Of a stretch of DNA of 64,000 nucleotides, positions 5,623 to 62,652 are shown piece by piece. The stretch is from a virus. The stretch spans positions 1 to 64,000 of IMG/VR virus record IMGVR_UViG_3300023179_000013; one strand, written 5' to 3'. Both the position numbers and the translations under genes were made by a program. The notes under the pieces are model-generated. The model ran no database searches. It was not told where the DNA came from and worked only from the letters and a program-made list of their open reading frames with translations. Each line of letters starts with the position of its first letter. Positions within the stretch are counted from its first letter, which is position 1.

Positions 5623-6003
5623 ATGATTAAGTTTAATGCACCAAAAGACAGATATGATAAGTTTAGATTAAATAGCAAAAATCCAGCTATTCAGAAAATG
5701 GTCATTGATACGTTTAAAAGTAATGGTATTAATGTGTATAAAAATACAGTAGAATATGATCCGGAATTTCCATATTTGTATTGGGATGGAGATGAATTAA
5801 CACAAAGCCATGGTACGGAAAATCTATTGAGTTTGGAAAAATTCATGGCTAAATTTATTGCAAAGGAAAGTATTGAAGTGAAATTAAATGAATCATATAC
5901 CGCCATTGTTGATGAAGATGGTGTAAGAGTGGGATGTCAAAGTTTTCCACATAGCGTTATTGAGAAATTAGCAGAGGCAGTTAAAAAAATTAAAAATCAA
6001 TAG
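5623..6003 (+). CDS. Hypothetical protein
   Basis: A 126-residue protein of mixed alpha/beta composition with no recognised motif. The second half contains an ESYTAIVDEDGVRVGCQSF-like strand-turn-strand and a helical, lysine-rich C-terminus. It follows the AAAGGTT leader and is two bases upstream of the next start, so the two are co-expressed. Function unknown. Confidence 0.65.
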   Translation: MIKFNAPKDRYDKFRLNSKNPAIQKMVIDTFKSNGINVYKNTVEYDPEFPYLYWDGDELTQSHGTENLLSLEKFMAKFIAKESIEVKLNESYTAIVDEDGVRVGCQSFPHSVIEKLAEAVKKIKNQ

Positions 6004-6004
6004 T

Positions 6005-6247
6005 ATGAGTAAGTTAAAAAACTGGGAAATAATAGACTGTGCCGTGTATAAAACAACACACTGGCAAATCGAAACGCATCCTGAAGAGGGTGAGGGAGAT
6101 ATATATTATGTAAGGTGTGAAGAGGATGATTTTAGTAATATATGGTACGTGAATAGTAGAAATGAAGGAACAATTGATGATGATACGGAACTGTTCAATG
6201 AATTGATTGAAATATGTGAGCGAGCGGGAGATGATATAGTGGGGTAA
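6005..6247 (+). CDS. Acidic hypothetical protein
   Basis: An 80-residue, strongly acidic protein with scattered Cys, Trp and Tyr residues and no clear motif. It starts two bases after the previous stop with the AGTATG start context found at several genes here. The next promoter begins thirteen bases after its stop. Function unknown. Confidence 0.6.
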   Translation: MSKLKNWEIIDCAVYKTTHWQIETHPEEGEGDIYYVRCEEDDFSNIWYVNSRNEGTIDDDTELFNELIEICERAGDDIVG

Positions 6248-6259
6248 GAGGAATAGGAT

Positions 6260-6283
6260 GGCAAAATAGTAATCGTATATTTC
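6260..6283 (+). promoter_or_regulatory. Early-type promoter
   Basis: GGCAAAA (6260-6266), nine-base spacer, TATATTTC (6276-6283), followed by an A/T-rich leader to the ATG at 6307. Confidence 0.65.
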
Positions 6284-6306
6284 CAGTAAATAAAAAATTA
6301 AATAGT

Positions 6307-6453
6307 ATGGAAACGAATCAAAAAACTAAATATACCGTATATTATCGAAAAGGTAAATGGGTAATTGTTAGTAATACAACAAATAAAGTAATTAAACGCT
6401 TTTCAACACATATCGATGCTGGTAAATGTGCTAGAAAATTAGAAAAATGTTAA
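6307..6453 (+). CDS. Small basic hypothetical protein
   Basis: A 48-residue basic protein with an N-terminal beta-hairpin-like stretch (TVYYRKGKWVIV) and a lysine-rich C-terminus with two Cys. It resembles the short DUF-type 'repeat-like' proteins of phages only in general composition. It has its own promoter, which supports it as a gene. Function unknown. Confidence 0.55.
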   Translation: METNQKTKYTVYYRKGKWVIVSNTTNKVIKRFSTHIDAGKCARKLEKC

Positions 6454-6475
6454 TAAACATTAAATAACGTATCGT

Positions 6476-6715
6476 ATGGCTGAGTTTTCAAAACAATACT
6501 GTCAAACACACGACATGGGATTTGACGGTGATTTCGATATATTGGAGGAATGGAATAAATTGAAACCGGGCTATTGTGTAGCGTTGATATGTGAGGGTTA
6601 CGGATTTACTAATATATGTAAGAGCGAGGATGGCGAGGAATGTTTATTATATTTCCCTGATGGAGATGAATTCGGAACACATTGGGTTGATTATTTTAAG
6701 TTGGAGTTAATGTAA
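6476..6715 (+). CDS. Hypothetical protein
   Basis: A 79-residue acidic protein with four Cys residues spread through the chain and many aromatic residues, suggesting a compact fold, possibly metal binding. No CxxC pair is present. It follows 22 bases after the previous gene and probably shares its transcript. Function unknown. Confidence 0.6.
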   Translation: MAEFSKQYCQTHDMGFDGDFDILEEWNKLKPGYCVALICEGYGFTNICKSEDGEECLLYFPDGDEFGTHWVDYFKLELM

Positions 6716-6734
6716 ATAAATAAAACGTAATAGT

Positions 6735-6902
6735 ATGAAAATAGATTTTAAGGCGTTAGGTAAAGCAATTATGTGGACGGGTGGTGTAATGACGTTAGCA
6801 CTTGGTGTAGCGTTGTTGACGAAGTGGTTAGGTAGTGGTATTTTGTTGGTACTTAATGTGGTTTTTTTGACTGCGCTATTCTATTTTATATTGAAAGACT
6901 AG
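6735..6902 (+). CDS. Small two-helix membrane protein
   Basis: A 55-residue protein with two hydrophobic segments (about residues 11-29 and 33-52) separated by a short polar turn with Lys and Trp. It is probably an inner-membrane hairpin, holin-like in shape, but short, and nothing else ties it to lysis. The start follows the AGTATG context. Its stop lies at the base of the hairpin at 6902. Confidence 0.55.
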   Translation: MKIDFKALGKAIMWTGGVMTLALGVALLTKWLGSGILLVLNVVFLTALFYFILKD

Positions 6903-33204: not shown

Positions 33205-33960
33205 ATGATAAAATTAATTGATTTACTGCTCGAAGCAGCAACCCAACCCAAAGCCATATTTTTAGCTGGTCCTGCTGGGTCTGGTAAATCTTATATATCT
33301 AAGCAATTAATCCCATCAGGATTAACTGTAATTAATGTAGACGATACTTACGAAGAATTATTAAAAGCAGCTGGTTTAGGTACAAAAATTGCTGACTTTA
33401 GTCAAGACCAATTATCGCAAGCAGCTAAATTAATGGGTCAAGCTCAAAAAGCTACTAAAGAAAAATATGCACAATTATCTGCTGCTAAAAATAATATTGT
33501 AATAGATGGTACTGGTGCTGCTCCTAAGCCACTATTAAAGAAAAAAGCAGAATTAGAAGCATTGGGATATGACACAATGATGATTATGATTTGGGTTTCG
33601 CCTTATACATCATTAGAGCGCAATGCACAACGTGATCGTGCTTTACCTCCTGCTATTGTACTTCGTACGTGGCGTGATGTAAATAAAAATATTGAAACAT
33701 ATAGATCAGCTTTTGATAAAGATTTTATATTAGTCGATAATGATCCTGAAGCTAGATTTGAATATAACCCTGAATATGTTAAACAACAATTTTTCAAAAC
33801 AGTAAAGGGTAGTGGTAAGAAATACTCACCAGAGGAATTAGTTAAAAAGAAAGAAGAAATAGATGCTATGAATCAAGAAATAGCTAGTTTACTTACTAAT
33901 GTTCCTGACTTTATGACTATTGAAGATGCAAAATCTAAAATAAATAATTTTTTAAAATGA
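33205..33960 (+). CDS. Zeta-toxin-like P-loop kinase with capsid-targeting-like leader
   Basis: A 251-residue protein. Residues 1-11 read MIKLIDLLLEA, with a possible prohead protease site after LLE (residue 10). Walker A GPAGSGKS is at 22-29, followed by a VINVDDTYE loop and the NNIVIDGTGA motif. This is the order of zeta-toxin/AAA_33 kinases, which phosphorylate small molecules such as UDP-sugars or RNA ends. A DRALPP loop may form the lid. The C-terminus is helical and charged. It opens a late operon. If the leader works as in T4, the kinase is delivered into the host; that is inference. Confidence 0.75.
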   Translation: MIKLIDLLLEAATQPKAIFLAGPAGSGKSYISKQLIPSGLTVINVDDTYEELLKAAGLGTKIADFSQDQLSQAAKLMGQAQKATKEKYAQLSAAKNNIVIDGTGAAPKPLLKKKAELEALGYDTMMIMIWVSPYTSLERNAQRDRALPPAIVLRTWRDVNKNIETYRSAFDKDFILVDNDPEARFEYNPEYVKQQFFKTVKGSGKKYSPEELVKKKEEIDAMNQEIASLLTNVPDFMTIEDAKSKINNFLK

Positions 33961-34649
33961 TTAGGTTAGTAGACATATTGAAAGAAGCTTATGTTGATAA
34001 ACAAGGAAATCTTATAAGTAATGCTGAATTTGTGGTTAAACAAAATGGATATTTTGATTTAATATTGGTAGATAAAGAAAAAATAAATATTAATAATTAT
34101 ATTAATTTTCAATCAAACCAAAGTGAATGGAATAATCAAAAAGTTGCAAATAGTATTTTTAATCAAATAATAGAATTATATAAAGGAACAGCACTTGAAA
34201 AATATAATAATATAGTTGGATTCACTCCCACAAAGAAAATAAATAGAGACAGTAATGTGTTTGATACTCCTTCATTAAGTTTATACTTTATGGAAGGTAT
34301 TGATAAAGTTGAAAATGGTGAATGGAAAGGATGGTTATTATCTCCACTATATATTGAAACTCCTATTGATAAAGAAGAATATTCTTTAAAAGGTAGAACA
34401 TTTCCTAGTATTCCTGGTTTTACTAATGAACCTGTTACTATAGGTTCTGGTGAAAAAGCAAAAACCACTACTAATCAAGAAGACATTAAAAATAAATTAA
34501 TGTATCTGAATATAATATATATACCTTTTATTCACATACCAAAATACAAAAAATCTTCCCCTAATATTGAAATTGAAACAAAATCAGATATTATTGATAT
34601 GTTTAATGAAGTAGGATTAGAGGCTCTTTCTTATAATAAATCAAAATAA
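33957..34649 (+). CDS. Leader-peptide protein of unknown function
   Basis: A 230-residue protein beginning MIRLVDILKEA, the same leader form as its neighbours, with a possible cut after KE (residue 10). The rest is mixed alpha/beta, rich in Asn, Lys and Ile, with no recognised motif. It starts in an ATGA overlap with the kinase gene, so both are made together. Cargo status is inferred from the leader alone. Confidence 0.6.
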   Translation: MIRLVDILKEAYVDKQGNLISNAEFVVKQNGYFDLILVDKEKININNYINFQSNQSEWNNQKVANSIFNQIIELYKGTALEKYNNIVGFTPTKKINRDSNVFDTPSLSLYFMEGIDKVENGEWKGWLLSPLYIETPIDKEEYSLKGRTFPSIPGFTNEPVTIGSGEKAKTTTNQEDIKNKLMYLNIIYIPFIHIPKYKKSSPNIEIETKSDIIDMFNEVGLEALSYNKSK

Positions 34650-34662
34650 ATAACTTTTTACA

Positions 34663-36066
34663 ATGAACTTAGGAGAATATTTAGCACAACAATTACTTGA
34701 AGCAGGAGAAGATAAACAAACTATTGCTTTATTCCCAGGCGCTTTCAAACCACCTCATAAAGGTCACTTTGATGTAGTTGAAAAATTATTAAAAGCAGCT
34801 GATCAAGTAGTAGTACTTGTATCACCTAAAATACGTGATGGAGTTTCTGCTGATGAATCTGTTGCTGTATGGAATTTATATAAGACCAAATTTAATGGTC
34901 CTGTCGAAATTAGAGTTGCTGCTGAATCTCCTGTTGGTGAAACATATGATGTTGTTAAAAACAACCCCGATACTGACTTTATTGTAGCGTTTGGAAAAGG
35001 TGAAATGGATCGTTATAAAAGCATGGAAAAACATCCTAATGCTAAAGTATTTGATGCTGGTGCTGTTGAAGGTGCTAATGCTACTAATTTAAGAATGGCT
35101 TTAGTTTCTAAAAATGAAGAAGAAATAGCAAAATATCTTCCTGATGGTATTAGTGTAACTGAATTTTTAACTGCAATTCAACAACCAATAGAATCAGAAC
35201 CAGAACCTGTTGCTGAGCCGGCTCCTACTACTCCTGAACAACCAGTACAAGAATCATCTCCTAATCAAGACGAAAATGATGATTACTACGATTATGTTCA
35301 AGCAAATCGTGATAAAGTAGAAAGAGTAGCTCAAGTATTTAATTATCCTATTGAGGATATGATACTTGCTTTCAACGGAGGTACACCAATGATAATGTCT
35401 GATGATATGTGGAGTGCTTTGGAAAATAGTGAATCACATAAAATTAAAGATTTAGAAAGTGCTATTTCGCATGCTTTAAAATTAGGTATCAATCCTAGAC
35501 CATATATTGATCAAATCAAGAAGAAAAAAGAAATGCCTTTACCTCTCGTACTACAATATGGTCCTAACCAATATTATTTAGTAGGAGGTGAAGTAGTATT
35601 ATCTATACTCAAAGCACTGGGTGCTATTCCTAATGTATTAGTAGGTAATATTACACCTAAAAGAGCAACATTATCCGAACCAATATTTGAAGTTTTAGAT
35701 ACTAAAAACGACAAACATAAACAAATATTAAAAAAGTTTATAGCATTTGCTATTAAAGAATTAGATATTCAAAAACCACCAAGTGGTCTTACATTATCTA
35801 AAGACAATACTAAAGCTAGATCTCGTCATACATTTGGTACTTTTAGTCCTGATAATGATAAAATTTGGCTCTATGTTAGTAATAGAAATATAGCTGATTC
35901 TTTACGTACATTAGCTCATGAGTTAGTACATCGTAAACAAGCTGAAGATAATAGATTAGATCTTACTAGCGGAGAAACAGGAAGTGAAATTGAAAATGAA
36001 GCAAATGCTCAAGCAGGAATATTATTAAGAAAATTCGGCAAACAAAACGAAGAAATATATCAATAA
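34663..36066 (+). CDS. Nucleotidyltransferase fused to a zinc metallopeptidase, with leader
   Basis: A 467-residue fusion. The leader MNLGEYLAQQLLE is followed by an (N/C)MP-transferase domain: FPGAFKPPHKGH (HxGH, residues 32-35) and the second motif GANATNLRMAL near residue 145. This domain joins a nucleotide to a phosphorylated small molecule. A Pro/Glu-rich linker lies at about 177-203. The last 100 residues carry HELVH (419-423), a gluzincin-type zinc motif, with an acidic helix SEIENEANAQA as a possible third ligand. The pairing of a nucleotidyltransferase and a protease suggests an effector acting on the host. The fusion and domains are seen; the target is unknown. Confidence 0.75.
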   Translation: MNLGEYLAQQLLEAGEDKQTIALFPGAFKPPHKGHFDVVEKLLKAADQVVVLVSPKIRDGVSADESVAVWNLYKTKFNGPVEIRVAAESPVGETYDVVKNNPDTDFIVAFGKGEMDRYKSMEKHPNAKVFDAGAVEGANATNLRMALVSKNEEEIAKYLPDGISVTEFLTAIQQPIESEPEPVAEPAPTTPEQPVQESSPNQDENDDYYDYVQANRDKVERVAQVFNYPIEDMILAFNGGTPMIMSDDMWSALENSESHKIKDLESAISHALKLGINPRPYIDQIKKKKEMPLPLVLQYGPNQYYLVGGEVVLSILKALGAIPNVLVGNITPKRATLSEPIFEVLDTKNDKHKQILKKFIAFAIKELDIQKPPSGLTLSKDNTKARSRHTFGTFSPDNDKIWLYVSNRNIADSLRTLAHELVHRKQAEDNRLDLTSGETGSEIENEANAQAGILLRKFGKQNEEIYQ

Positions 36067-36069
36067 GTT

Positions 36070-36537
36070 ATGTATACTATTTTTTGTGACATGGACGGTG
36101 TCCTTGTTGACTTTGACAAAGGTTATTATGATTTAACAGGTAATCATACATCTCAATTTCCTCATGGAGATAGTGATTTTTGGAAACCACTTGAAGAAGA
36201 AGGAGCACTTTTTTGGGCTACTTTACCCTGGATGCCTGATGGACAAGATTTATGGCGTTTTATTAAACGTTATAAACCTTATATTTTATCTGCCCCATCT
36301 CAAGACCCTGCCTCTAGAATAGGAAAAGAAGCATGGTGTAAAATGCATATCAATAATCAATATAGAAAGCTATATTTTAAACCAGCTAAATTTAAATCAG
36401 ATTTTGCTGGTCAAAATAAAATTCTTATTGATGATAGGGAAGATACAATTGCGAGCTGGAACGCTAAAGGTGGAATAGGAATCCACCATACATCAGCTGC
36501 TAATACAATTAAAGAATTGAAAAAACTAGGTTTATGA
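36070..36537 (+). CDS. HAD-superfamily 5'-nucleotidase-like phosphatase
   Basis: A 155-residue protein with the HAD motif DMDGVLVDFD at residues 7-16 and a second acidic motif ILIDDRED near 117-124. This matches the small deoxyribonucleotidase group that removes phosphate from nucleoside monophosphates. It lacks the leader peptide of its neighbours. It overlaps the next gene by four bases. A role in tuning nucleotide pools during infection is the usual explanation. Confidence 0.8.
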   Translation: MYTIFCDMDGVLVDFDKGYYDLTGNHTSQFPHGDSDFWKPLEEEGALFWATLPWMPDGQDLWRFIKRYKPYILSAPSQDPASRIGKEAWCKMHINNQYRKLYFKPAKFKSDFAGQNKILIDDREDTIASWNAKGGIGIHHTSAANTIKELKKLGL

Positions 36538-37118
36538 GTGATAACATGCTAAAAAAAGAATTTAATACGCGTGATGTACAACGCATGCGTAATATTATTA
36601 CTAAAGATTATAGTGCAAAAACAGGTGTACAAGTAGGATATTCTAAAGGATACGTTGAACGTAAAGAGGGAGACGTGTGGGAGGAAAATAAAAAAACTTG
36701 GACTATTAAGAATGGTATCAAAATGACTATTACTAAACTTGATAAAGTAAAACAAGCCTTACAGATGCCTTTAATATGCCCTATCTGCCATCAACCAATG
36801 AATAAAGGTAGATTAGATAAAATAATGTATTCTATCCATAAACAATGTTCTGATTGTGTAATTAAACATGAAACTGAATTAAAACGTTTAGGTAAATTTG
36901 AAGAATACCAACAAAACATCAACAAACAAAGTATAGTTTATCATATCAAGGAGATGGAAAATGTATTACTTGAATTAGTTATGGAACAATCCGATGAATC
37001 ATTTGTAACTGAAGCAGGAGATATTGAAACTTGGAAAGGAAAAGGTTTTGATAAACAAAAAGTGGTCGAGGATATACAAGAATACATCAAAAAGCTTAAA
37101 GATGTGGTGAATTCCTAA
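36534..37118 (+). CDS. Zinc-ribbon-like hypothetical protein
   Basis: A 194-residue protein with two cysteine pairs, CPIC at residues 82-85 and CSDC at 105-108, spaced to bind one zinc. The N-terminal 78 residues are basic and beta-like, and the C-terminal 80 are helical. It overlaps the nucleotidase gene (ATGA). A DNA- or RNA-binding role is plausible. A late promoter begins at its stop codon. Confidence 0.65.
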   Translation: MSDNMLKKEFNTRDVQRMRNIITKDYSAKTGVQVGYSKGYVERKEGDVWEENKKTWTIKNGIKMTITKLDKVKQALQMPLICPICHQPMNKGRLDKIMYSIHKQCSDCVIKHETELKRLGKFEEYQQNINKQSIVYHIKEMENVLLELVMEQSDESFVTEAGDIETWKGKGFDKQKVVEDIQEYIKKLKDVVNS

Positions 37119-37130
37119 TATTTATTGGTA
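37118..37130 (+). promoter_or_regulatory. Late promoter motif, exact copy
   Basis: ATATTTATTGGTA, overlapping the stop region of the upstream gene and 27 bases before the ATG at 37158. Confidence 0.65.
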
Positions 37131-37157
37131 ATGAACATTTTAATCTTTTAACTAATA

Positions 37158-37439
37158 ATGGATAGCATTTACACAGTACTAATCACAGCAATTACAGTTT
37201 TAGGAGGTTCTACAGCTTTTAGATTTTACGAAAAACGTGCATTGCATAGAGAACGCGATGAAGATTTTATCCGTCACGATTGTAAAGATCGTATTTCTAA
37301 ATTAGAAGCATTATTAGAAGAATCAGCCAAAGAAAAAGACGAAATGCGTAGTTTAATTTTAAAGCTTACATCAGAAGTAGCTGAATTACGTGTTAAAGTT
37401 GAGTATTTAACTACTGAAAATAAAAAATTATCTAAGTGA
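37158..37439 (+). CDS. Single-pass membrane coiled-coil protein
   Basis: A 93-residue protein with an N-terminal hydrophobic helix (residues 3-21), a short basic loop and a long coiled coil with heptad Leu/Val spacing (residues 44-92). This is the shape of an inner-membrane spanin subunit or a small membrane anchor. The partner for a spanin pair is not adjacent. It overlaps the next gene by four bases. Confidence 0.6.
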   Translation: MDSIYTVLITAITVLGGSTAFRFYEKRALHRERDEDFIRHDCKDRISKLEALLEESAKEKDEMRSLILKLTSEVAELRVKVEYLTTENKKLSK

Positions 37440-37666
37440 TAAAGCTCACCGAACTACTTATAAACGAAGGACCAGCAGAATACCCAGCTAACCACCAACC
37501 AGGAATGCGCGTAACTAAAGGTGGTTCAATGTGTGCTAATTGTGAATATTGGATTGCTGAAGGTAACAAATGTAATAATGAATATTGGTTAACTTGGCAT
37601 GATGGGAATGAAAATATTCCTTATCCTGCTGATGAATATTGTTGTAATTGGTGGCATAAAAAATAA
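37436..37666 (+). CDS. Cys-rich leader-peptide protein (GTG start)
   Basis: A 76-residue protein. It is read from a GTG at 37436 that overlaps the upstream stop as GTGA. The leader MIKLTELLINEGPAE has a site after INE (residue 11). The body has five cysteines (33, 36, 46, 69, 70), with CANC and a C-terminal CC next to tryptophans. It could hold a rubredoxin- or HiPIP-like iron centre or zinc. Similar small Cys/Trp-rich proteins occur in the virion gene regions of T4-like phages. The function is not established. Confidence 0.6.
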   Translation: MIKLTELLINEGPAEYPANHQPGMRVTKGGSMCANCEYWIAEGNKCNNEYWLTWHDGNENIPYPADEYCCNWWHKK

Positions 37667-37672
37667 ATAACT

Positions 37673-38092
37673 ATGAAATTATCAGAATTAAGACATTTAG
37701 TTAAAGAAACCCTTAAAGAGGCATTCTTTATTGGTGAAGATGATATTGAGGAATATGATGTAAAAAATGCACAAGATATAAAAGAATTTGTTGAATTCAT
37801 GCGTGAATATCAACAACAGTTAAATGAAGCTGATTGTGATTGTTTACTTGAAGCTAAATATCAAGGTCGCACTGTACCTTTAGGTAAACCAATGCGCGGT
37901 GATAGTAAGAAATTCAAGGTGTATGTTAAAAACCCTAAAACAGGTAAAGTTGTAAAAGTTAACTTTGGTGCTAAGGGAATGAATATAAAGAAAAACAATC
38001 CTATTAGACGCCGAGCCTTTAGAGCAAGACACAATTGCGCAAACCCAGGACCCCGTACTAAAGCTAGATACTGGTCTTGTAGAAAATGGTAA
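37673..38092 (+). CDS. Leader-peptide protein with C-terminal WSCRKW module
   Basis: A 139-residue protein. The leader MKLSELRHLVKETLKEA has a possible site after LKE (residue 16), followed by an acidic part containing AFFIGEDD. The last 80 residues are basic and resemble a widespread phage domain that ends in a WSCRKW motif, with YVKNPKTGKVVKVNFG and RARHNCANPG as key parts. I believe this is a DUF5872-type module, but cannot check it. It has no known activity. Confidence 0.6.
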   Translation: MKLSELRHLVKETLKEAFFIGEDDIEEYDVKNAQDIKEFVEFMREYQQQLNEADCDCLLEAKYQGRTVPLGKPMRGDSKKFKVYVKNPKTGKVVKVNFGAKGMNIKKNNPIRRRAFRARHNCANPGPRTKARYWSCRKW

Positions 38093-38093
38093 T

Positions 38094-38888
38094 ATGATTA
38101 AATTAACTGACTTATTAATTGAGATGCTGTTAGAAGATCGCTGCAAGCGCATCGCTGACCGCCGTTACTCAAAACCATCTGCCTATAAATCAGGTGCTAT
38201 TGTTCGTTGCCGTAAAGGTAATATTTGGAAAGGTATTAAATCTGAAGCATTTTTCATTGGTGAAGATGATCCTGAAACCCCACAACCAGGAGAATCTAGT
38301 GGAGCAGCAGCCAAATTTAAACCAGGAACAGAACCAAAAAAAATAGAATTTTTAACACTATCTGAAATAATTCAAAAAATACCTAGTATTCCTTATTACA
38401 AGGAAGTATTAGATGACATAAAGAAGGGAGATGAAAGTTGGGGAGTAACTAAAAAAGTTAAAGAATATGCGGAATATATGATGAAAAATCCTTCATCATT
38501 AAAAAATTTACCTCCAATTATAGTAATTGATGGAAAAATACAAGATGGAGCCCATAGAATTTCAGCTATATATTTATTACAAAATTTATTAGATCCAGAA
38601 AACAATTTTTGGAAGACTTTAAAACTTAAAGTTGAATTTTGGAATAAAGAAAATTTAAACGAAAAACAAAAAGAAACCCTTCGCACTTGGTTTAAACGCA
38701 AAGGTGCTCCTGGTAAAACAGGTGGATGGGTTGATTGTAATACATGCCGCGAAGTAGATGGTAAAACCAAATGCAAACCTTGCGGCAGACAAAAAGGTGA
38801 AAAGCGAGCAAAATATCCATCTTGTCGTCCAACACCATCACAATGTAAACAACCAGGTAAAGGTACTAAATGGGGTAAAACAAAATGA
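38094..38888 (+). CDS. ParB-like protein with Cys-rich tail and leader peptide
   Basis: A 264-residue protein. Leader MIKLTDLLIEM (site after LIE, residue 10) is followed by a small Cys/Arg module and then AFFIGEDD, as in the neighbouring gene. In the centre, PPIIVIDGKIQDGAHRISAI is the ParB/Srx-type nuclease-like motif with a GxHRI core. The last 80 residues carry a Cys-rich module (WVDCNTCR, CKPCGRQKGEKRAKYPSCRP) also common in T4-like phages. A DNA nicking or NTP-binding role is inferred. It overlaps the next gene by four bases. Confidence 0.65.
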   Translation: MIKLTDLLIEMLLEDRCKRIADRRYSKPSAYKSGAIVRCRKGNIWKGIKSEAFFIGEDDPETPQPGESSGAAAKFKPGTEPKKIEFLTLSEIIQKIPSIPYYKEVLDDIKKGDESWGVTKKVKEYAEYMMKNPSSLKNLPPIIVIDGKIQDGAHRISAIYLLQNLLDPENNFWKTLKLKVEFWNKENLNEKQKETLRTWFKRKGAPGKTGGWVDCNTCREVDGKTKCKPCGRQKGEKRAKYPSCRPTPSQCKQPGKGTKWGKTK

Positions 38889-42571: not shown

Positions 42572-43011
42572 TAAAGTTACTTGATTTATTAGAAAAAAAG
42601 ATGACACCTGCTCAAAAGAAAAAGCGTGGTGAAATATTTGATAAATTAGTAGCAGGTGGAATGGCTAAAGATAAAGCTGGAGCTATTGCAACCTCAAAAG
42701 CTATGGCTGAAAAATTAGATCCTGTAGGAAAAGAAGATGACGATATTAATAACGATGGTAAAGTAGATAAGACAGATAAGTATTTAGCTACCCGTCGCAA
42801 AGCAATAGCTGCTAATCTTAAAGAAGATCATGAAGTATCCATGGCTCAAGCTAGTTTAAAATCTATTATTAAATCTTCAATTACTTTATTAAACAAATTA
42901 GGTAATGAGGAGCGTGATATTCCAGGATGGATTCAAGACCATATCACAAACGCTGAAAACTATATTGACCAAGCGGCTCAAGGTTTTCATGAATTAAAAA
43001 ATGATGAATAA
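42568..43011 (+). CDS. Leader-peptide protein with EF-hand-like loop
   Basis: A 147-residue protein. The leader [12 protein letters not shown] has a site after LLE (residue 9). It is followed by a basic helix, then [17 protein letters not shown] (about residues 57-73), which matches a calcium-binding EF-hand or dockerin loop. The C-terminal 65 residues form helical hairpins. It overlaps both neighbours. The Ca-binding loop may be structural; cargo status is inferred. Confidence 0.6.
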
Positions 43012-43552
43012 AGAATTATTATTAGAAAAATATATTAAGGTAGCTGTTAAAAAGGCACTTAAAGAAGCCGAAGAACAACAGCGAAAAGCGGAAAAAGCGA
43101 TGTACCTAGTATATCGCTTTCCTGGGTTAAAAAAAGTAATGGAAGAAGTTATGTCTCCTGCTTTTGGTCGTTACATTAGTGGTATTAATATTGTTGCCCC
43201 TAAACCAACTACATTTAATGTAAGTTTAGTTAATGGTCAAGAATTTAGTGTTAAATATCTTGGCAATAAAAATTTTAGTGTTAAAGTAGCAGGTAAAAAA
43301 TATAATCCAATTAATTTAGGAGAAGCAGAACGTTGTTCACAAGCAATAGCAGATTTATTAGAATTAAATTATGCCCCTGCTGAAGGTAAAGAACAACCAG
43401 GTGCTGCTCCTGAAACAGGAGGAGCTGAAACACCACCTGCTGAACCAACAGGACCAGGAGCCTCTGAATTAGGACCTGAATTAGCTGCTGCTGAAACACC
43501 ACCAGCTGAAACACCTGCTCCTGAAGAAGAAACACCACCAGCTGAAGCTTAA
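43001..43552 (+). CDS. Protein with Pro/Ala/Glu-rich C-terminal tail
   Basis: A 183-residue protein. The N-terminal 25 residues form a charged helix with [20 protein letters not shown]. The core (about 30-115) is a mixed domain with strand-rich [15 protein letters not shown]. The C-terminal 65 residues are low complexity with repeated ETPPAE units, probably unfolded. The first of two adjacent in-frame ATG codons (43001, 43004) overlaps the previous gene. A capsid-internal role is possible. Confidence 0.6.
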
Positions 43553-43555
43553 AAT

Positions 43556-44542
43556 ATGAAAGTTATAGATCAAATATTACTTGAGTGGGCTTATCGCTGC
43601 CCAGATGGAATTGTTGATATAAACAATCCTAAAAAGAAAGCTATATTAGACGAAATATTAAAAGAATATAATATAGACGAAATAAATCTTAATGAAGGAA
43701 GTGATAAATATGACGAAACTATTTCTTTAAAGTTAGGAGGAAATATTCCTAAAGTTAAAGGTAGATATAACTTAGAAAAAAAGAACGGAACTATAAAAAT
43801 AACAGATCCTGATGATTTAGAAATATTTAAAAAATTATTTTCTGTTGTTCCTTCTAAAGCAGGAAGAGGAGTTGAAGAAGAAGGTACCAAGGGATCAGGA
43901 AATGGAGAAATATCAATATATTGGTTGTTTGCCCATCAATCTGGCCACACTGCAGAAGATACTAGGGGAGGAGGAAATCCAGACTTACTTATTGATGGAG
44001 TAGGAGTTGAAATTAAATCTTTAGAAAGTAAAAAAATAGCAATAGGTAGAATAGGAAGTTATACAACTAGTTTAAATGATTTAAATGTAGTATTAGGAAT
44101 AGATGCCTTAATAACAGAATTTCAACCAAAAGGAAAAAAACAAACTCCTCCAAATGCTTTTAATGCTACTGTAGAAGATTTAAATCAGGCTTGTACAAAT
44201 GCTTTAACAGTATATGAAAATGATGAATTAAGAGAAATTGGAAGTGTATTTAATATTGATTTCATATCTTCTTTATATACCAAACTAGACAAATTAATAG
44301 AAAAATACTCACCAAAATCTGCACAACATTTTACATCAGATTTACTTAAAGGATTTATATTACAAAAATTCAAACAAAAACCAGGAATACCAGGATATAT
44401 TATAAATGTTTCTAGAGAGGGAATATTGGATTATACTTATATTAATCAAAGTAAAATAGATGAATTAAGCAGAGAGAATATATTGAAAAATGCTGAATTA
44501 AAACAAGGAACATTAGTGTTTAAATCTGATTTGTTTGGATAA
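43556..44542 (+). CDS. PD-(D/E)xK nuclease with leader peptide
   Basis: A 328-residue protein. The leader MKVIDQILLEW has a possible site after LLE (residue 10). At residues 142-154 GNPDLLIDGVGVEIKS gives the nuclease pattern P-D-x(8)-E-x-K, with Asp143, Glu152 and Lys154. It lies in a setting typical of restriction-type endonucleases (a preceding Gly-rich GRGVEEEG loop and HTAEDTRGGG). A phage-borne, possibly capsid-delivered nuclease would need to spare its own DNA. The motif is seen; target and delivery are inferred. Confidence 0.7.
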   Translation: MKVIDQILLEWAYRCPDGIVDINNPKKKAILDEILKEYNIDEINLNEGSDKYDETISLKLGGNIPKVKGRYNLEKKNGTIKITDPDDLEIFKKLFSVVPSKAGRGVEEEGTKGSGNGEISIYWLFAHQSGHTAEDTRGGGNPDLLIDGVGVEIKSLESKKIAIGRIGSYTTSLNDLNVVLGIDALITEFQPKGKKQTPPNAFNATVEDLNQACTNALTVYENDELREIGSVFNIDFISSLYTKLDKLIEKYSPKSAQHFTSDLLKGFILQKFKQKPGIPGYIINVSREGILDYTYINQSKIDELSRENILKNAELKQGTLVFKSDLFG

Positions 44543-50496: not shown

Positions 50497-50510
50497 CAAT
50501 AGTGTTATAT

Positions 50511-52094
50511 ATGGCTAATCAAGCAGACATTAAAGAAATAATTAAGCAGGAGTACATCAAATGTGCTATGGATCCTGTGCATTTCTTTAGAAAATATTGT
50601 TACATTACACACCCAGTAAAAGGTAGAGTATTATTTCATCTATACCCATTTCAGGAAACAACATTAGGTGATTTTAGACAGCATCGTTTCTCCATAGTAA
50701 ATAAATCTCGTCAGTTAGGTATCTCTACTCTTGTAGCAGGATATGCTTTGTGGACAATGTTGTTTCAAAAAGATAAAACAGTATTGTGTATAGCTACTAA
50801 ACAAGAAACAGCTAAAGGAATGGTTGAAAAGGTACAATTTATGTATAATAACTTACCTTCCTGGTTACGTGGTAACCAAAAACCAATTTCAGATAATAAA
50901 TTATCACTAAAATTAGCTAATAACTCTCAAATTGTAGCTACATCCGCTGCCTCAGATGCTGGTCGATCCTACGCCGTATCCTTATTATTAATAGATGAGG
51001 CCGCGTTTATTGAAGGTATTGATCGCATTTACACCAGTATTAAACCTACCATTGCTACGGGTGGAGGAATCATAGCATTATCCTCTCCAAATGGTATTGG
51101 TAACTGGTTTCACAAAATGTATACTGAAGCTCAAATTGGCAAGAATGACTTCTGGCCAATAGAGCTAAAATGGAATTTACATCCTGATAGAGATGAGGCT
51201 TGGGAAGAACGTGAACGTGCAAACATGTCACCACGTGAATTTGCCCAAGAATATGACTGTGACTTCCTTGGTTCTGGAAACTCAGTAATTGAACCTGACA
51301 ATCTATCCTTTTATGAACAAACATTTATCCAAGATCCTGTGGAACGCCGCTTTATGGGTGGTGATTTTTGGATTTGGCAGTATCCTGATTATAGTAAGTC
51401 TTATATTTTATGTGCTGACGTTGCTCGCGGAGATGGCTCGGACTACTCAGCGTTTCATGTTATCGATGTGGAAACATGTGAACAAGTAGCTGAATATAAG
51501 TCGCAAATAGATACTAGAACATATGGTAATATGCTTGTTTCTGTTGCTTCTGAATATAATAATGCTTTACTTGTAGTTGAAAATGCAAACGTAGGATGGG
51601 ATGTAGTAAACACAATTATAGAAAAAGGTTATAGAAACTTATATTATTCACCTCGTGCTTATGGTGAAATGCATGTAGATAAATGGATGGCTAAAATGGA
51701 TAGTGAACAAACAGTTCCTGGATTCACTACATCAGTCAAAACAAGACCACTTGTTATCTCCAAAATGGAGGCGTATATTCGAGATAGAGTATTTACTTTT
51801 AGGTCTAAACGCTTACTTGAAGAATTACGTGTATTCGTTTGGCAAAATGGTAAAGCTCAAGCCCAAAATGGATATAATGACGACTTAGTTATGGCCTTAG
51901 GAATTGGATTATTTACTAGAGACACTGGTGTTAAATTCCATCAACAAGGGTTAGACATGACTAGGATGGCTTTGGGTGGTATATCTAGAACTGGTGGTGG
52001 ACCAGGTGACATGCCTATGTTACCAAGCGGAACACCAAATCCATATATAATGGATACACCCCACGGCCCTGAAGATTTTACATGGATACTATAA
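50511..52094 (+). CDS. 17: Terminase large subunit gp17
   Basis: A 527-residue DNA-packaging motor. The ATPase has a deviant Walker A KSRQLGIST (residues 65-73, with lysine at the start rather than before Ser-Thr) and Walker B LLLIDEAA (158-165). A C-terminal RNase-H-like nuclease follows, with ADVARGDGSDYSAF (Asp303 and neighbours) and NDDLVMALG near the end. It drives DNA into the head and cuts it. Length is slightly under T4 gp17. The in-frame start at 50502 lies in the promoter leader and is not used. The small subunit is not in the window. Confidence 0.9.
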   Translation: MANQADIKEIIKQEYIKCAMDPVHFFRKYCYITHPVKGRVLFHLYPFQETTLGDFRQHRFSIVNKSRQLGISTLVAGYALWTMLFQKDKTVLCIATKQETAKGMVEKVQFMYNNLPSWLRGNQKPISDNKLSLKLANNSQIVATSAASDAGRSYAVSLLLIDEAAFIEGIDRIYTSIKPTIATGGGIIALSSPNGIGNWFHKMYTEAQIGKNDFWPIELKWNLHPDRDEAWEERERANMSPREFAQEYDCDFLGSGNSVIEPDNLSFYEQTFIQDPVERRFMGGDFWIWQYPDYSKSYILCADVARGDGSDYSAFHVIDVETCEQVAEYKSQIDTRTYGNMLVSVASEYNNALLVVENANVGWDVVNTIIEKGYRNLYYSPRAYGEMHVDKWMAKMDSEQTVPGFTTSVKTRPLVISKMEAYIRDRVFTFRSKRLLEELRVFVWQNGKAQAQNGYNDDLVMALGIGLFTRDTGVKFHQQGLDMTRMALGGISRTGGGPGDMPMLPSGTPNPYIMDTPHGPEDFTWIL

Positions 52095-52127: not shown

Positions 52128-54017
52128 ATGGCTGAACAAAATACAGGCTTATTTAGTAGATTAAGACGCCTATTCTCCACAGATGTTATCATCAGAAATG
52201 TAGGAGGCAATCAGTTAAAAACGGTAGACGTTGACAGAATTCAAGCTTACGGAAACGTAAAAACAAATGCTTTAATTGATAGATTCACCAAGTTGCACCG
52301 CTATGGCGCTAATATGCCATACAACCCAACAATGAACTACCAAACACTTCGTATTCAGTTATATACTGACTATGAAGCAATGGATACAGAATCAATTGTT
52401 GCCTCTGCTCTTGATATTGTTGCTGATGAATCAACATTAAAGAATGAAGCTCAAGAAGTAGTACAAATCAGAAGTGCTGACGAAAATGTTCAACGCATTT
52501 TATATAATTTATTCTATGATGTTTTAAACATAGAATTTAACTTATGGTTATGGATTCGCAATATGTGTAAATATGGCGACTTTTATTTACACCTTGAAAT
52601 TGCAGAAAAATTTGGTATTTACAGCGTAACACCATTATCAGTTTATGATATGGTTCGTGAAGAAGGTACAGATCCTACTAATCCATCTTATGTGTGTTTT
52701 AAGATTGATCCAATGGTAATTGCCGCTGGTGGTATCAACTCACGTGTTAAAGATAGAGATGGTAAGATTAAATTTGAAAATTATGAAATAGCGCATTTTA
52801 GACTATTAACTGACGCTAACTACTTGCCTTACGGACGTTCTTATATTGAGCCTGCTCGTAAGTCTTATAAGCAATATGTGTTGATGAAAGATGCTATGTT
52901 GTTACATCGCATCACCCGTGCCCCAGAAAAACGTATCTTCTACGTTGATATTGGAAACTTACCTCCGAATGAAGTTGATGGATACATGGAGCGTTTAAAG
53001 CAAAAAATGCAAAAAACTCCATTCATCGACAAAAATACTGGCGAATATAACTTACGTTATAACATGATGAACGTAATGGAGGACTTCTATATTCCACAAC
53101 GTGGCGCTAATAGCAATACTAAAATCGATACCTTAAAAGGTTTAGAGTATAATGCTATTGATGACGTAAACTTCCTCCGCGATGAAATGTTAGCAGCACT
53201 TAAAGTACCTAAAGCTTTCTTCGGATTTGAAAAAGACTTAACAGGTAAGGCTACATTAGCTGCTGAAGATATTCGTTTTGCTCGCACCGTTGAACGCATT
53301 CAACGTATTGTTGTTAGTGAATTGTATAAAATAGCCTTAGTACACTTATACGTTCAAGGATATGATGGTGAATCATTGACTAATTTCGAATTATCATTGA
53401 CTACTCCATCAATCATCTATGAACAGGAAAAAGTAGCATTATGGAAAGAAAAAATAGCATTAGCTAAAGATATCCAAGATACCAAATTATTACCTTCAGA
53501 TTGGATTTATGATAATGTATTCCAATTCAGCGAAGATCAATATGATGAATATCGTGATTTAGTACTTGAAGATATGAAACGTACCTTCCGCTTATCCCAG
53601 CTTGAAAACGAAGGTAACGACCCAGCTAAATCTGGTAAATCTTATGGTACACCACACGATCTTGCTTCATTGTATGGTAAAGGAAGAAATGGTGTTGGTG
53701 ATACAGGTGCTATCCCTCCTGGATATGACGAAAAACGTCCTGTTGGTCGTCCTGAAGAGAAATCTTCTATTGTAGGTACACAAAAAGACCCATTAGGTAA
53801 AGATAGATTAGGTAGTATTGAAAATGGTACATTATATACTGCTAATATTCCTGATGAAGGAAGCAGTACACCAAAAGGTGGTTCACCATTAGCATTAGCT
53901 GAATCTAAAAAGCATAAAGGCTTACTTGAAGGAATGAGTGCCTTCCGTAAAGAATTAGCTATTAAACCTGAACAGGAATCTACACTATTGGACGAAAAAA
54001 ATATCAAGGACGTATAA
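52128..54017 (+). CDS. 20: Portal protein gp20
   Basis: A 629-residue protein with portal signatures. These include the start LFSRLRRLFSTDVIIRNVGG, the DYEAMDTESIVASALDIVADE segment split across two helices, and a C-terminal half with the channel helix before NEGNDPAK. It forms the dodecameric ring through which DNA enters. Length matches the gp20 family (over 500). The last 110 residues, rich in Gly, Pro and Ser, look unfolded and include an RPVGRPEEK stretch. It follows the terminase by 33 bases. Confidence 0.9.
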   Translation: MAEQNTGLFSRLRRLFSTDVIIRNVGGNQLKTVDVDRIQAYGNVKTNALIDRFTKLHRYGANMPYNPTMNYQTLRIQLYTDYEAMDTESIVASALDIVADESTLKNEAQEVVQIRSADENVQRILYNLFYDVLNIEFNLWLWIRNMCKYGDFYLHLEIAEKFGIYSVTPLSVYDMVREEGTDPTNPSYVCFKIDPMVIAAGGINSRVKDRDGKIKFENYEIAHFRLLTDANYLPYGRSYIEPARKSYKQYVLMKDAMLLHRITRAPEKRIFYVDIGNLPPNEVDGYMERLKQKMQKTPFIDKNTGEYNLRYNMMNVMEDFYIPQRGANSNTKIDTLKGLEYNAIDDVNFLRDEMLAALKVPKAFFGFEKDLTGKATLAAEDIRFARTVERIQRIVVSELYKIALVHLYVQGYDGESLTNFELSLTTPSIIYEQEKVALWKEKIALAKDIQDTKLLPSDWIYDNVFQFSEDQYDEYRDLVLEDMKRTFRLSQLENEGNDPAKSGKSYGTPHDLASLYGKGRNGVGDTGAIPPGYDEKRPVGRPEEKSSIVGTQKDPLGKDRLGSIENGTLYTANIPDEGSSTPKGGSPLALAESKKHKGLLEGMSAFRKELAIKPEQESTLLDEKNIKDV

Positions 54018-54915: not shown

Positions 54916-55476
54916 ATGGCACAATTAATCAACGAAGCAAAAAGAATGCAATTTTTAGCAGGTCTTATTACTGAATCACAATTAAATGAAGAAAGTATTA
55001 AGTCTTTATTAAAACAAAAAGAAGATGTAGTTAAAATATTATCACCTTTAAAAGGAACTACATTAAACTTAGTAGGGTTAAGTGAAGATAACAAACCAAA
55101 CGGATGCACAGCTACAGCTACTGTATCTAATATAAATAATGAATATTATCCACAAGGGTCTAATAGTGATCCAGATTATTTTCAAATAAGCCCAGAACTT
55201 ACTTTTACTATTTCTAATGAAAAATTAGGTAGTGATCAAGAAGAAAATAATAAATTTAAAAAAACTTTAGAAGATATCAAATCAACACCATGTACTATTT
55301 CTGGTGGTGGAAGTAATAAATTAAAAGTTATTATGGATGCTAATAGTGGTTTTTTAAGTGGCTATGAAATAGGAGCTACTAAAGAAAGTACATTCTTTAA
55401 AAAACTTGAAGAAATACTTAAAGCAGATATACAGTGGCAAAGTAAAGGTGGCGATTTATTAGCACTTGGAGCATAA
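54916..55476 (+). CDS. Leader-peptide protein of the head-core region
   Basis: A 186-residue protein. The first 31 residues hold two possible prohead sites, after INE (MAQLINEAKRMQFLAG) and after ITE (LITESQLNE). A basic helix follows, then a strand-rich domain with two Cys residues (CTATATVS, CTISGG). A nearly identical leader design occurs on the protein after gp21 (58928). It may be an internal head protein. Confidence 0.6.
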   Translation: MAQLINEAKRMQFLAGLITESQLNEESIKSLLKQKEDVVKILSPLKGTTLNLVGLSEDNKPNGCTATATVSNINNEYYPQGSNSDPDYFQISPELTFTISNEKLGSDQEENNKFKKTLEDIKSTPCTISGGGSNKLKVIMDANSGFLSGYEIGATKESTFFKKLEEILKADIQWQSKGGDLLALGA

Positions 55477-58322: not shown

Positions 58323-58934
58323 ATGAGTAAATCATTATTAATAGATCACACCCCCTTTCAATCAGCTAAGCTTACTTTAGTTGAAGGTAAAGATACTAAA
58401 GCTGGTTTAGTTGAATTAGTAGGTAAACTACAAGCCGCTGACCAAGAAAATGGTAACAATCGTAAATATCCTTTTAAAGTTCTTAAACGTGAAGTAGACA
58501 AATATTTAGAAGGTCCTGTTAAAACACGTACTGCTTTAGGCGAATTAGATCATCCTGAAGCATCTGTTGTAAATTTAGCAAATACTTCACATGTTGTCAC
58601 TGATGTTTGGTGGGATGGAAATAACGTTATGGGTAAAATCCAATTATTACCTACACCATCAGGCAATATTGCTAAAGCATTAATTTTATCAGGTATTCCA
58701 CTTGGTATTTCATCTCGTGGTATGGGTTCAGTTAAACAGTTAGGTGAAACTGTAGAGGTACAAGACGATTTCGAATTATTATGTTGGGATTTAGTATCAG
58801 TACCATCAACCCCACAAGCATATATGCAATTAGCTGAATCTAAGAAATTTGCTTCAGTTAAAGATTATAGTAAAGTAAATGAATTAATTACCGAAATTAT
58901 TTGCGCACAAACAGGAGTATGTCCACTATGTTAA
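58323..58934 (+). CDS. 21: Prohead core protease gp21
   Basis: A 203-residue protein with the gp21 serine-protease signature. His77 stands in TALGELDHPEAS and the serine in PLGISSRGMGS (about residues 126-136), with Gly-rich strands between. In T4 it is activated inside the prohead and cuts scaffold and internal proteins after (L/I)-x-E. The many leader peptides in this window fit its substrates. Length matches T4 gp21 (about 212). It overlaps the next gene. Confidence 0.9.
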   Translation: MSKSLLIDHTPFQSAKLTLVEGKDTKAGLVELVGKLQAADQENGNNRKYPFKVLKREVDKYLEGPVKTRTALGELDHPEASVVNLANTSHVVTDVWWDGNNVMGKIQLLPTPSGNIAKALILSGIPLGISSRGMGSVKQLGETVEVQDDFELLCWDLVSVPSTPQAYMQLAESKKFASVKDYSKVNELITEIICAQTGVCPLC

Positions 58935-59518
58935 TACAAGAAGCAAAAAGACTACAGCAATTAGCTGGTATTATAACTGAAGCTGAAGATGCTAAAGCTG
59001 AACAAGCTGTTGAAAAAGGATTAAAATCTTTTTTAAATATTTTACAATCAGCGGAACAACAGGTTAAAGTATCTCCTAATGATGGAAAACAAAATGAAAT
59101 TTTTGTAACTCTAGCATCTATTATAATAGGAGCACCAGGATTATTAAATTTACTTGGGAAAGGAGCAGATCTTATAGGACAATATTTTTCACAAGGTGCT
59201 GTTAATAAAACAAAAATAGGTGATTTGTTAAAAACTGCAGGTCATAATTTAGAAAACCAATATATAGGTTCTTTAGCAGGATGGATTAAAGCAGCTTATC
59301 CTAAAAGTTATGGAGATCAAGATCCTTTTGACAAAACATCAGAATTACATGATTTAGCTCATGGAGCTTACGCTTCTTTATTAGTTGGAGCTGCTATTGG
59401 ATCTGGACTTGAAGCAGGCCATGCTATAAATGCTGTTGTTAAAGGGCTCGAAGGGGGTGCTGCTGCTTTTAAAACATCTGAAGTAGCAGATTTAGCTAAA
59501 AAAATAGTAGCTGCTTAA
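58928..59518 (+). CDS. Leader-peptide head-core protein
   Basis: A 196-residue protein. The start MLIQEAKRLQQLAGIITEAE carries two (I)-x-E sites, after IQE and ITE, very like the protein at 54916. The rest is helical with hydrophobic, Gly/Ala-rich segments (about residues 55-80 and 150-175), so it may interact with membranes after delivery. ATG 58928 overlaps the gp21 stop; ATG 58919, three codons longer, is an alternative. Confidence 0.65.
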   Translation: MLIQEAKRLQQLAGIITEAEDAKAEQAVEKGLKSFLNILQSAEQQVKVSPNDGKQNEIFVTLASIIIGAPGLLNLLGKGADLIGQYFSQGAVNKTKIGDLLKTAGHNLENQYIGSLAGWIKAAYPKSYGDQDPFDKTSELHDLAHGAYASLLVGAAIGSGLEAGHAINAVVKGLEGGAAAFKTSEVADLAKKIVAA

Positions 59519-60984: not shown

Positions 60985-62652
60985 ATGAACATTCAATCAT
61001 TATTAGAGTCATCAAACCAATACAAGGTTATTGCTGATGACGCCAAAAAACTCTCCGCTAAGTGGACCAAATCTGGTCTCTTAGAAGGATTAAAAAGCGA
61101 GAACGATCGCAATACAATGGCGATGTTACTCGAAAACCAAGCTAAGCAGTTAGTAACTGAAGCTTCATCTACTGGTAACCAATCTGGTGGTGCTGGTGCT
61201 TACAACGGTGAAAGCTGGAACGGTGTTGCCCTTCCATTAGTACGCCGTGTATTCGGTGAAATCGCTGCTAAAGAATTCGTTTCTGTACAGCCGATGAACT
61301 TACCTTCTGGTCTCGTATTCTACTTGGACTTCAAGTATGGTACTGGTGTTAAACCATTTGCCTCTGGTGGTTCTTTATATGGAGCTAATGCTTCTACAAA
61401 CGTAACTGATATTGCTTCAGCTTCATTATATGGTGCTGGTAAATTCGGTTATTCTATCAACCAATTCTCATCTTCTATTGCTGCTATCACATCATCTGCT
61501 GGTGGTGCAACTGGTGCTGCTACTTGGTTAGATTTTAACTTAGACGCTGCTTACTCTTCTTCTTTTACTAGCTTTAAAAAGATCCTTGTTCCATTACCTG
61601 CTAACTTCGATGTTAACGGTGTTCGTGCTTTCCAAGTTCTTTCAGGTTCTACTAACATTGACTTACAAGTATTGTCTGCGTTTACAACTGTATCTAACAA
61701 TACTGGTTCCTTTATCGTTACTGGTTCCTTAATTCCAGTTGCTGCTATTGGTGCTGGTGGTACTTTAGGTAATGTAACTTTATTGTATAACGTAGCTCCT
61801 TTAGCAACATCTCGTGGTGACTTTGAAGATGCTAATAACCTTAACTCTCCAGGTACTAACCCAGGTGGTTATCCAAATAACCAATCACAAACTGCAATTG
61901 CTATTCCAGAAGTTAACGTTCAGTTAAAATCTGAAGCAATCGTTGCTAAAACTCGTAAGTTGAAAGCTCAGTGGACTCCAGAATTCGCTCAAGACTTAAA
62001 CGCTTACCATAGCGTAGATGCTGAAGCTGAATTAACTGGTATCTTATCTCAGTACATCTCTATGGAGATTGACCTCGAGTTGTTAGATATGTTAATCCAG
62101 AACGCTTTCACAGTTGATTACTGGTCTGCTACTAACAACACTGCTTACAGTGTTTCTGGTACTACTGTTACTACTTCTGCATTAGCTTTCTATAACACCC
62201 AAGGTGGTTGGTTCCAAACTTTAGGAACTAAACTCCAGAAAGTTTCTAACAAAATTCACCAGTTAACTTTACGTGGTGGTGCTAACTTCTTAGTTTGCTC
62301 TCCAACTGTAGCTACTATCATCGAATCAATCCCAGGATTTGCTTCTGATGGTGATGGTGATAAAATGGAATTCAACTTCGGTATCCAAAAGGTTGGTTCT
62401 CTTAACAGTCGTTACAAGGTTTACAAGAACCCATATATGACTGAGAACGTAATCTTAATGGGTTACAAAGGTGCTCAATTCCTTGAGTGTGGTGCTGTAT
62501 TTGCTCCATACGTTCCGTTAATCATGACTCCACTTCTTTACGATCCAACAACCTTCACTCCACGTAAAGGTTTGATGACTCGTTACGCTAAGAAGATGAT
62601 CCGTCCTGACTACTACGGTAAGATCTATGTTGCTGGTTTAGATACTATCTAA
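60985..62652 (+). CDS. 23: Major capsid protein gp23, copy 1
   Basis: A 555-residue protein. The N-terminal 60 residues contain L-x-E sites and LVTEASSTGN, where cutting after Glu59 would give mature protein, as in T4 gp23. The core has GESWNGVALPLVRRVFGEIA and VQPMNLPSGLVFYLDF, strong gp23 signatures. The ending PRKGLMTRYAKKMIRPDYYG is also typical. It forms the shell. It follows the scaffold gene and ends at a strong terminator. A second copy follows directly. Confidence 0.93.
   Translation: MNIQSLLESSNQYKVIADDAKKLSAKWTKSGLLEGLKSENDRNTMAMLLENQAKQLVTEASSTGNQSGGAGAYNGESWNGVALPLVRRVFGEIAAKEFVSVQPMNLPSGLVFYLDFKYGTGVKPFASGGSLYGANASTNVTDIASASLYGAGKFGYSINQFSSSIAAITSSAGGATGAATWLDFNLDAAYSSSFTSFKKILVPLPANFDVNGVRAFQVLSGSTNIDLQVLSAFTTVSNNTGSFIVTGSLIPVAAIGAGGTLGNVTLLYNVAPLATSRGDFEDANNLNSPGTNPGGYPNNQSQTAIAIPEVNVQLKSEAIVAKTRKLKAQWTPEFAQDLNAYHSVDAEAELTGILSQYISMEIDLELLDMLIQNAFTVDYWSATNNTAYSVSGTTVTTSALAFYNTQGGWFQTLGTKLQKVSNKIHQLTLRGGANFLVCSPTVATIIESIPGFASDGDGDKMEFNFGIQKVGSLNSRYKVYKNPYMTENVILMGYKGAQFLECGAVFAPYVPLIMTPLLYDPTTFTPRKGLMTRYAKKMIRPDYYGKIYVAGLDTI

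Follow-up and report, generated by a model that had tools for sequence, protein, structure and literature searches.

The question raised by this locus was whether the open reading frame (ORF) at 43556–44542 encodes a nuclease that is loaded into the phage head together with the genome, as had been proposed from its short leader and its restriction-type active site. The window, namely the whole stretch of DNA that was analysed, covers positions 1–64,000 of a virus record that is 168,946 bp long. By its gene content the phage is T4-like, encoding a large terminase, a portal protein, a gp21-family protease, and a gp23-family capsid protein. Among named phages, Flavobacterium phage immuto (host Flavobacterium sp. 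LMO8) is the closest to it, which makes a Bacteroidota bacterium the probable host. In our judgement, the protein is quite probably a nuclease member of a T4-type internal-protein system, which would deliver polymorphic, restriction-like nucleases.

Predicted nuclease and its fold

The ORF proved intact, with an ATG at 43556 and a stop codon ending at 44542, and the restriction-type site was found where it had been predicted. The features of the gene are as follows.

43556–44542, + strand: module-plus-nuclease gene, 328 aa (ORF; more than 100 relatives in IMG/VR)
43556–43696, + strand: loading module, residues 1–47, proposed cleavable propeptide (conservation, model, and junction-site statistics)
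43556–43585, + strand: residues 1–10, MKVIDQILLE, like the short T4-type leaders MIKLxDLLxE elsewhere in the genome
43703–44539, + strand: predicted nuclease domain, residues 50–328, restriction-endonuclease-like (conservation, model, and structural matches)
43907–44017, + strand: active-site core (read from the sequence; invariant in alignments)
43907–43909, + strand: E118
43982–43984, + strand: D143
44009–44011, + strand: E152
44015–44017, + strand: K154

Searches of Pfam, PHROGs, NCBIfam, and PADLOC assigned no family to the ORF beyond CdiA_C, its sole Pfam match, which lay below the cut-off, and a sequence search of solved structures gave a chance-level match only. Querying IMG/VR directly with just the window protein returned no match because the short exact seeds missed divergent relatives; the relatives were reached stepwise, first via immuto gp078 and then via alignments. 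Among bacterial genomes, neither a relative of the whole protein or nuclease domain nor a donor was found, which is weak evidence because the search seeds were few.

The site reads GGGNPDLLIDGVGVEIKS, i.e., P142-D143-x8-E152-I-K154, and a scan of all called ORFs in the record (53,677 aa) gave P-D-x8-E-x-K a single time, in this ORF. An alignment of 11 class members, which are 30–42% identical to the window protein, shows E118, D143, E152, and K154 without variation, and the pattern GE...D-x8/9-E-x-K was matched by 61 of 62 relatives; the remaining one (L132) keeps the E, the D, and E-V-K with a longer spacing. Therefore, the motif is not due to chance. Loss of the active-site residues in homologues, named in the original prediction as evidence against it, did not occur. 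In class A (an 18-member alignment with 31% mean identity), the equivalent catalytic residues E178, D196, E205, and K207 are likewise invariant, the only other invariant columns being N-module residues, G175, G195, and P354. Classes A and W also align by profile across the active-site core (93% probability, E 3e-7). In these alignments, the homologues keep both the acidic D...(D/E)-x-K residues of the active site and a Glu in an upstream helix, and the identification of the payload as a predicted PD-(D/E)xK nuclease with catalytic E118/D143/E152/K154 is well supported.

The AlphaFold model of the window protein had a mean pLDDT of 84. Its best matches in VIA-align were HinP1I (Z 5.5 and 5.2) and MspI (Z 5.1), the HinP1I alignment at Z 5.5 covering 156 aligned residues with an rmsd of 4.2; a splicing endonuclease and a Holliday resolvase came next, and the top rows were all nucleases. 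Foldseek searches of PDB and BFVD returned nothing significant. A restriction-endonuclease-like fold, closest to type II restriction enzymes, is therefore supported for the modelled payload but not settled by the structural match alone, because Z values of 5.1–5.5 are middling. The sequence-unrelated payload of L032, which follows the same module (model pLDDT 63), matched BglI (Z 8.2), SfiI (8.0), NaeI (7.0), SwaI, Sau3AI, EcoRV, and others, the first thirty rows being all type II restriction enzymes. Based on both models, two or more payload types that are unrelated in sequence have a restriction-like appearance. The nuclease identity proposed originally is well supported by the conserved catalytic residues and by restriction enzymes as the best structural matches.

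Proposed loading module and its head-gene neighbourhood

Concerning the leader, MKVIDQILLEW is present as had been described, but it is the start of a longer conserved unit of about 40–47 residues (consensus M-x-V-x-D-x-I-x-x-E-W-[AS]-[FY]-R-C-x-x-G-x-x-D-x-N-N-P...), and the likely cut was relocated to its end. The unit is modelled as two helices (residues 3–14 and 25–37) followed by a disordered linker (42–49), which carries L45-N46-E47↓G48 (the arrow marks a putative cut), fitting the L/I-X-E motif of T4 gp21. A junction site at residues 37–58 was found in 22 of 33 non-redundant class relatives, compared with a mean of 3.3 and a maximum of 10 in 2000 shuffles; about one third of the class members have no obvious junction site, and the true fraction is slightly above 22/33 because the 33 include L116, a short-leader form without a site in this range. 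Residues 10 and 11 are probably not separated, since W11 and the following residues (W11-A-Y-R-C) are conserved. The prohead-protease site therefore likely lies between residues 47 and 48, at the module end, judging from its position, its conservation, and the phage's own gp23-type site. Residues 1–10 alone as the cleaved leader were rejected, as the conservation runs on through the module.

The same nuclease was found behind short leaders in other phages, namely behind MIKLS[KN]ILKE↓V in ten loci and behind MNFKEHFHLYE↓A (L104) and MNFREYHELYE↓A (L108); these short-leader homologues are L103, L106, L111–L113, L116, L117, L127, L128, L131, L104, and L108. MKTYQEFIAE, the leader of the T4 internal proteins, is similar to the latter two leaders. 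A targeting sequence of about ten residues was found in some homologues only; the window module, of about 45 residues compared with 10 in T4, resembles over its whole length no proven targeting sequence. In T4, the 10-residue capsid targeting sequence goes with the L/I-X-E motif of gp21 (PMC9026906). As an observation apart, LR756508, a 484-kb uncultured, unrelated huge phage, carries the module on a strongly acidic protein that is not a nuclease (L024, 4989–6065).

The surroundings of the gene were then compared with the rest of the genome, and the relevant features are as follows.

33205–38888, + strand: upstream genes with T4-type leaders read from the sequence, namely MIKLIDLLLE↓A, MIRLVDILKE↓A, MNLGEYLAQQLLE↓A, MIKLTELLINE↓G, MKLSELRHLVKETLKE↓A, and MIKLTDLLIE↓M
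43001–43552, + strand: conserved partner gene (gp43001), adjoining the nuclease gene on its upstream side; it has a leader of its own and an acidic tail rich in Pro and Glu
50502–52094, + strand: large terminase (PF03237, E 1.4e-10)
52128–54017, + strand: portal protein (phrog_213, E 1e-60)
58323–58934, + strand: prohead core serine protease, gp21 family (PF03420, E 8e-35; phrog_207)
60985–62652, + strand: major capsid protein, gp23 family (PF07068, E 5.8e-77)

Leaders of the form [LI]-x-E↓[AGS] at positions 6–24 were found in 17 of the 41 ORFs within 33–69 kb (shuffled expectation 1.9, maximum 6 in 500 trials) and in 7 of 155 ORFs elsewhere in the genome (4.7 expected). The window nuclease is not among the 17, because W follows its first L-L-E and its second site lies further in. 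With the deposited gene calls of immuto, 10 of 32 ORFs near the head genes bore leaders (1.9 expected, maximum 7 in 1000 trials). The capsid protein of the window carries LVTE↓A at residues 56–60, and that of immuto carries IVSE↓A, both at the position where T4 gp23 is cut; the former is likely a site for the same prohead protease.

Several other genes in this neighbourhood deserve mention in their own right. Two tandem gp23-type capsid genes with near-identical N-termini are present (60985–62652, and 62727 to the window end, reaching 64433 in the record). The product of 34663–36066, an NMN adenylyltransferase-related (NadR-like) nucleotidyltransferase, starts with MNLGEYLAQQLLE↓A; of 78 loci, 41 have a NadR-like gene on the upstream side of the nuclease slot, and in L132 a similar enzyme downstream of the nuclease starts with MKTFKQFFNE↓Q, near the T4 leader. 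Such an enzyme might be packaged in the head and restore NAD. A zeta-toxin-like P-loop kinase (33205–33960; PF06414, E 6.6e-10) with the leader MIKLIDLLLE↓A is a candidate packaged kinase. L111 encodes, at 5709–6785, a protein with the leader MIKLIDILKE↓V and, by eye, a possible ADP-ribosyltransferase-like start recalling T4 Alt, with no Pfam match. An (L)INEAKRMQxLAGLITE-like N-terminal motif on three otherwise different proteins (window 54916–55476 and 58901–59518; record 152021–152419) is possibly another targeting leader.

The originally proposed capsid loading gains support from convergent comparative evidence: the leader swap, the L/I-x-E junction, the cluster of leader-bearing genes, the gp21 and gp23 homologues, and the terminase/portal neighbourhood all argue for capsid targeting and prohead-protease processing of the window protein. 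An ordinary infection-stage nuclease for host-DNA breakdown or recombination, never packaged and with the module as a fold or interaction domain, is an unlikely explanation. It would be in keeping with a module longer than the T4 targeting sequence and with the frequency of PD-(D/E)xK enzymes in phages (immuto gp183 is annotated as one); however, short T4-like leaders can take the place of the module in front of this nuclease, and the module ends in a protease motif and belongs to a gene lying among leader-bearing genes that adjoin the head genes.

One slot with exchanged payloads

A gp43001 homologue lies directly upstream of the nuclease in 73 of 78 distinct loci larger than 8 kb, and terminase follows the slot in 60 of these loci, all on one strand. 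As selection by the nuclease was to be avoided, the slot census was seeded with gp43001 homologues, which gave 66 distinct readable loci. The slot next to gp43001 held a module protein in 26 of them (gap −1 to +3 bases) and another gene in the other 40. Represented among the 26 module proteins are the window class as well as classes A/C, D, and E; ten others had no BLAST match to any earlier class.

These counts bear on a possible role in head completion or packaging like that of T4 gp4, a virion-associated REase-fold nuclease needed for packaging (PMC7824862). In addition to this precedent, the position of the gene upstream of terminase is consistent with such a role, and a search of these genomes for a gp4 of the TnsA_N type at other loci gave none, although its controls matched weakly, so that a diverged gp4 was possibly missed. 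Nevertheless, 40 of the 66 loci have the neighbour gene but a slot that is free of module proteins, and unrelated sequences take the place of payloads, which would not be expected of an essential packaging enzyme; we therefore regard the gp4-like role as very unlikely and return to a head-loaded, exchangeable payload.

The exchange was evaluated in 24 close-relative loci, representing 22 distinct contigs. The FAD-oxidoreductase flank was 70–82% identical in most of the 24 loci, gp43001 52–77%, and the module 59–82%; by comparison, payload similarity was undetectable in 17 of the 22 contigs and the payloads were 34–38% identical in 5. The cleanest swap was L058, with terminase at 82%, the module at 82%, and an unrelated payload. 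A housekeeping enzyme would not be swapped at one locus among close relatives, and the module is common to unrelated payloads, both of which argue further against the ordinary nuclease discussed above. In L226 the module carries only a different domain, starting with HFxxRxxxRG, and in L159 (607 aa) the same domain follows a class-A nuclease; therefore, payloads can be stacked or non-nuclease.

A fixed site with a variable nuclease that is missing from some relatives would also be expected of a homing or otherwise selfish endonuclease moving among phage genomes. We give this explanation only a slim chance, since the variable part is fused to a conserved phage module, its reading frame lies within a few bases of the upstream gene, the payload alone changes while flanks and module are kept, and the payload is predicted to fold like type II restriction enzymes.

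The conserved N-terminal delivery part with variable C-terminal domains would also fit a polymorphic toxin of the classical kind, paired with its own immunity gene as in the MuF toxins of temperate phages, and the sub-threshold CdiA_C match points in the same direction. This explanation is nonetheless quite improbable: the gene downstream of the payload tracks the phage lineage and not the payload class, the N-terminal part has no MuF match, and the genomes are T4-like, not those of temperate phages. No payload-linked immunity gene was seen at these loci. The downstream gene was rejected as a candidate on the lineage pattern, and gp43001 (at least 582 relatives) was rejected as a payload-specific immunity protein, being conserved across payload classes; gp43001 could be a loading partner or a general inhibitor.

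Payload swapping behind a conserved module, together with the lack of a payload-specific neighbour, suggests an arms race in which cleavage specificity or inhibitors are at stake. The rapid turnover of payloads would suggest selection on specificity or inhibitor escape, for which rival phages, satellites, plasmids, or resistant hosts are a better fit than simple nucleotide recycling.

Possible self-protection and delivery, and comparison with known systems

The original prediction held that a packaged nuclease must be kept from acting on the packaged DNA, perhaps by DNA modification or metal starvation, and genes for a modification were found elsewhere in the genome: homologues of FolE, QueD, QueE, and QueC, and a protein homologous to immuto gp206, annotated as the DNA guanine transglycosylase DpdA (E 1e-40; the NCBIfam DpdA match was weak). 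By these preQ0 synthesis genes and DpdA, the phage is, in gene content, of the 7-deazaguanine-modified kind. 7-Deazaguanines shield phage DNA from many restriction enzymes (PMC6884629), and the pathway predicted here could protect the phage's own DNA from the payload. QueC was found in 6 of the 13 records carrying the nuclease gene and a DpdA-like protein in 10 (three weak), some of the records being fragments; since four records of 157–166 kb have no QueC, other means of protection, such as metal limitation, must exist. Engineered T4 heads with staphylococcal nuclease are infectious until calcium is added (PMC9026906), so that a silent nuclease inside a head is physically possible. A type II restriction-modification system was rejected on the methylase test, which covered PF01555 and PF00145 and gave no match to either family in the 13 records.

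Based on this evidence, the pathway may be outlined. The N-terminal module would recruit the precursor to the prohead scaffolding core, and the gp21-type protease would cut after E47, so that a 281-residue nuclease is retained in the head with the DNA. The released payload, of predicted PD-(D/E)xK fold and nearest in shape to type II restriction enzymes, would be harmless there because the DNA probably contains 7-deazaguanine and/or metal is limited. After ejection, the nuclease would enter the host with the DNA and cut unmodified DNA. Its target may be the chromosome, defence plasmids, prophages, or a rival phage, which is the least certain step.

A broader reading can be put forward tentatively and at somewhat less than even chance: lytic Bacteroidota T4-like phages may deliver a restriction-modification function from the virion, in that they load restriction-type endonucleases into their heads by way of a detachable module, swap them among phages like cartridges, mark their own DNA genome-wide with 7-deazaguanine, and cut unmarked host, plasmid, prophage, or rival phage DNA at entry, before expression. 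If true, the T4 internal-protein pathway also delivers offensive DNA-cutting enzymes, and a large, mostly uncultured phage group trades its payloads at a single hot spot. The locus would be a source of new restriction-like nucleases and possibly of a natural tag for loading phage heads with enzymes, and it would allow the coexistence of a nuclease and a packaged genome to be tested directly. Keyword searches limited to the open literature turned up no natural family of head-packaged restriction-like nucleases; subscription papers may differ.

Among known systems, the closest are IPI–III and Alt of T4 (PMC9026906, PMC3012670, PMC12373910), which likewise go with a gp21-family protease, a gp23 capsid, a targeting part ending in L/I-x-E, a variable mature part, and gene polymorphism. 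The T4 internal proteins have only the leader in common and inhibit type IV restriction enzymes (PMC3012670, PMC12373910). The differences are that Ip1–3 are such inhibitors and Alt is an ADP-ribosyltransferase, whereas the window payload looks like a restriction enzyme, and that the window module is several times longer than the T4 targeting sequence. In engineered T4, EcoRI or Ca-activated staphylococcal nuclease was packaged as an IPIII fusion, likewise a nuclease behind a capsid-targeting propeptide (PMC9026906); those heads are man-made, whereas the arrangement predicted here from genes appears natural, widespread, and polymorphic.

The MuF polymorphic toxins (PMC5576092) are similarly phage-borne, with swapped C-terminal nucleases behind a conserved N-terminal delivery part, but a MuF head protein, temperate phages, and small downstream immunity ORFs, none of which was seen here, characterize those systems. 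In predicted fold and PD-(D/E)xK active site, the window class is like HinP1I and MspI, and the L032 class is like BglI and SfiI; unlike type II systems, the payload has no PF01555/PF00145 methyltransferase partner, for which the 7-deazaguanine pathway may substitute. The phage shares homologues of FolE, QueD, QueE, QueC, and DpdA with 7-deazaguanine-modified phages (PMC6884629), in which the modification is described as a means to withstand restriction by the host; in the present phage it may, in addition, guard against its own payload.
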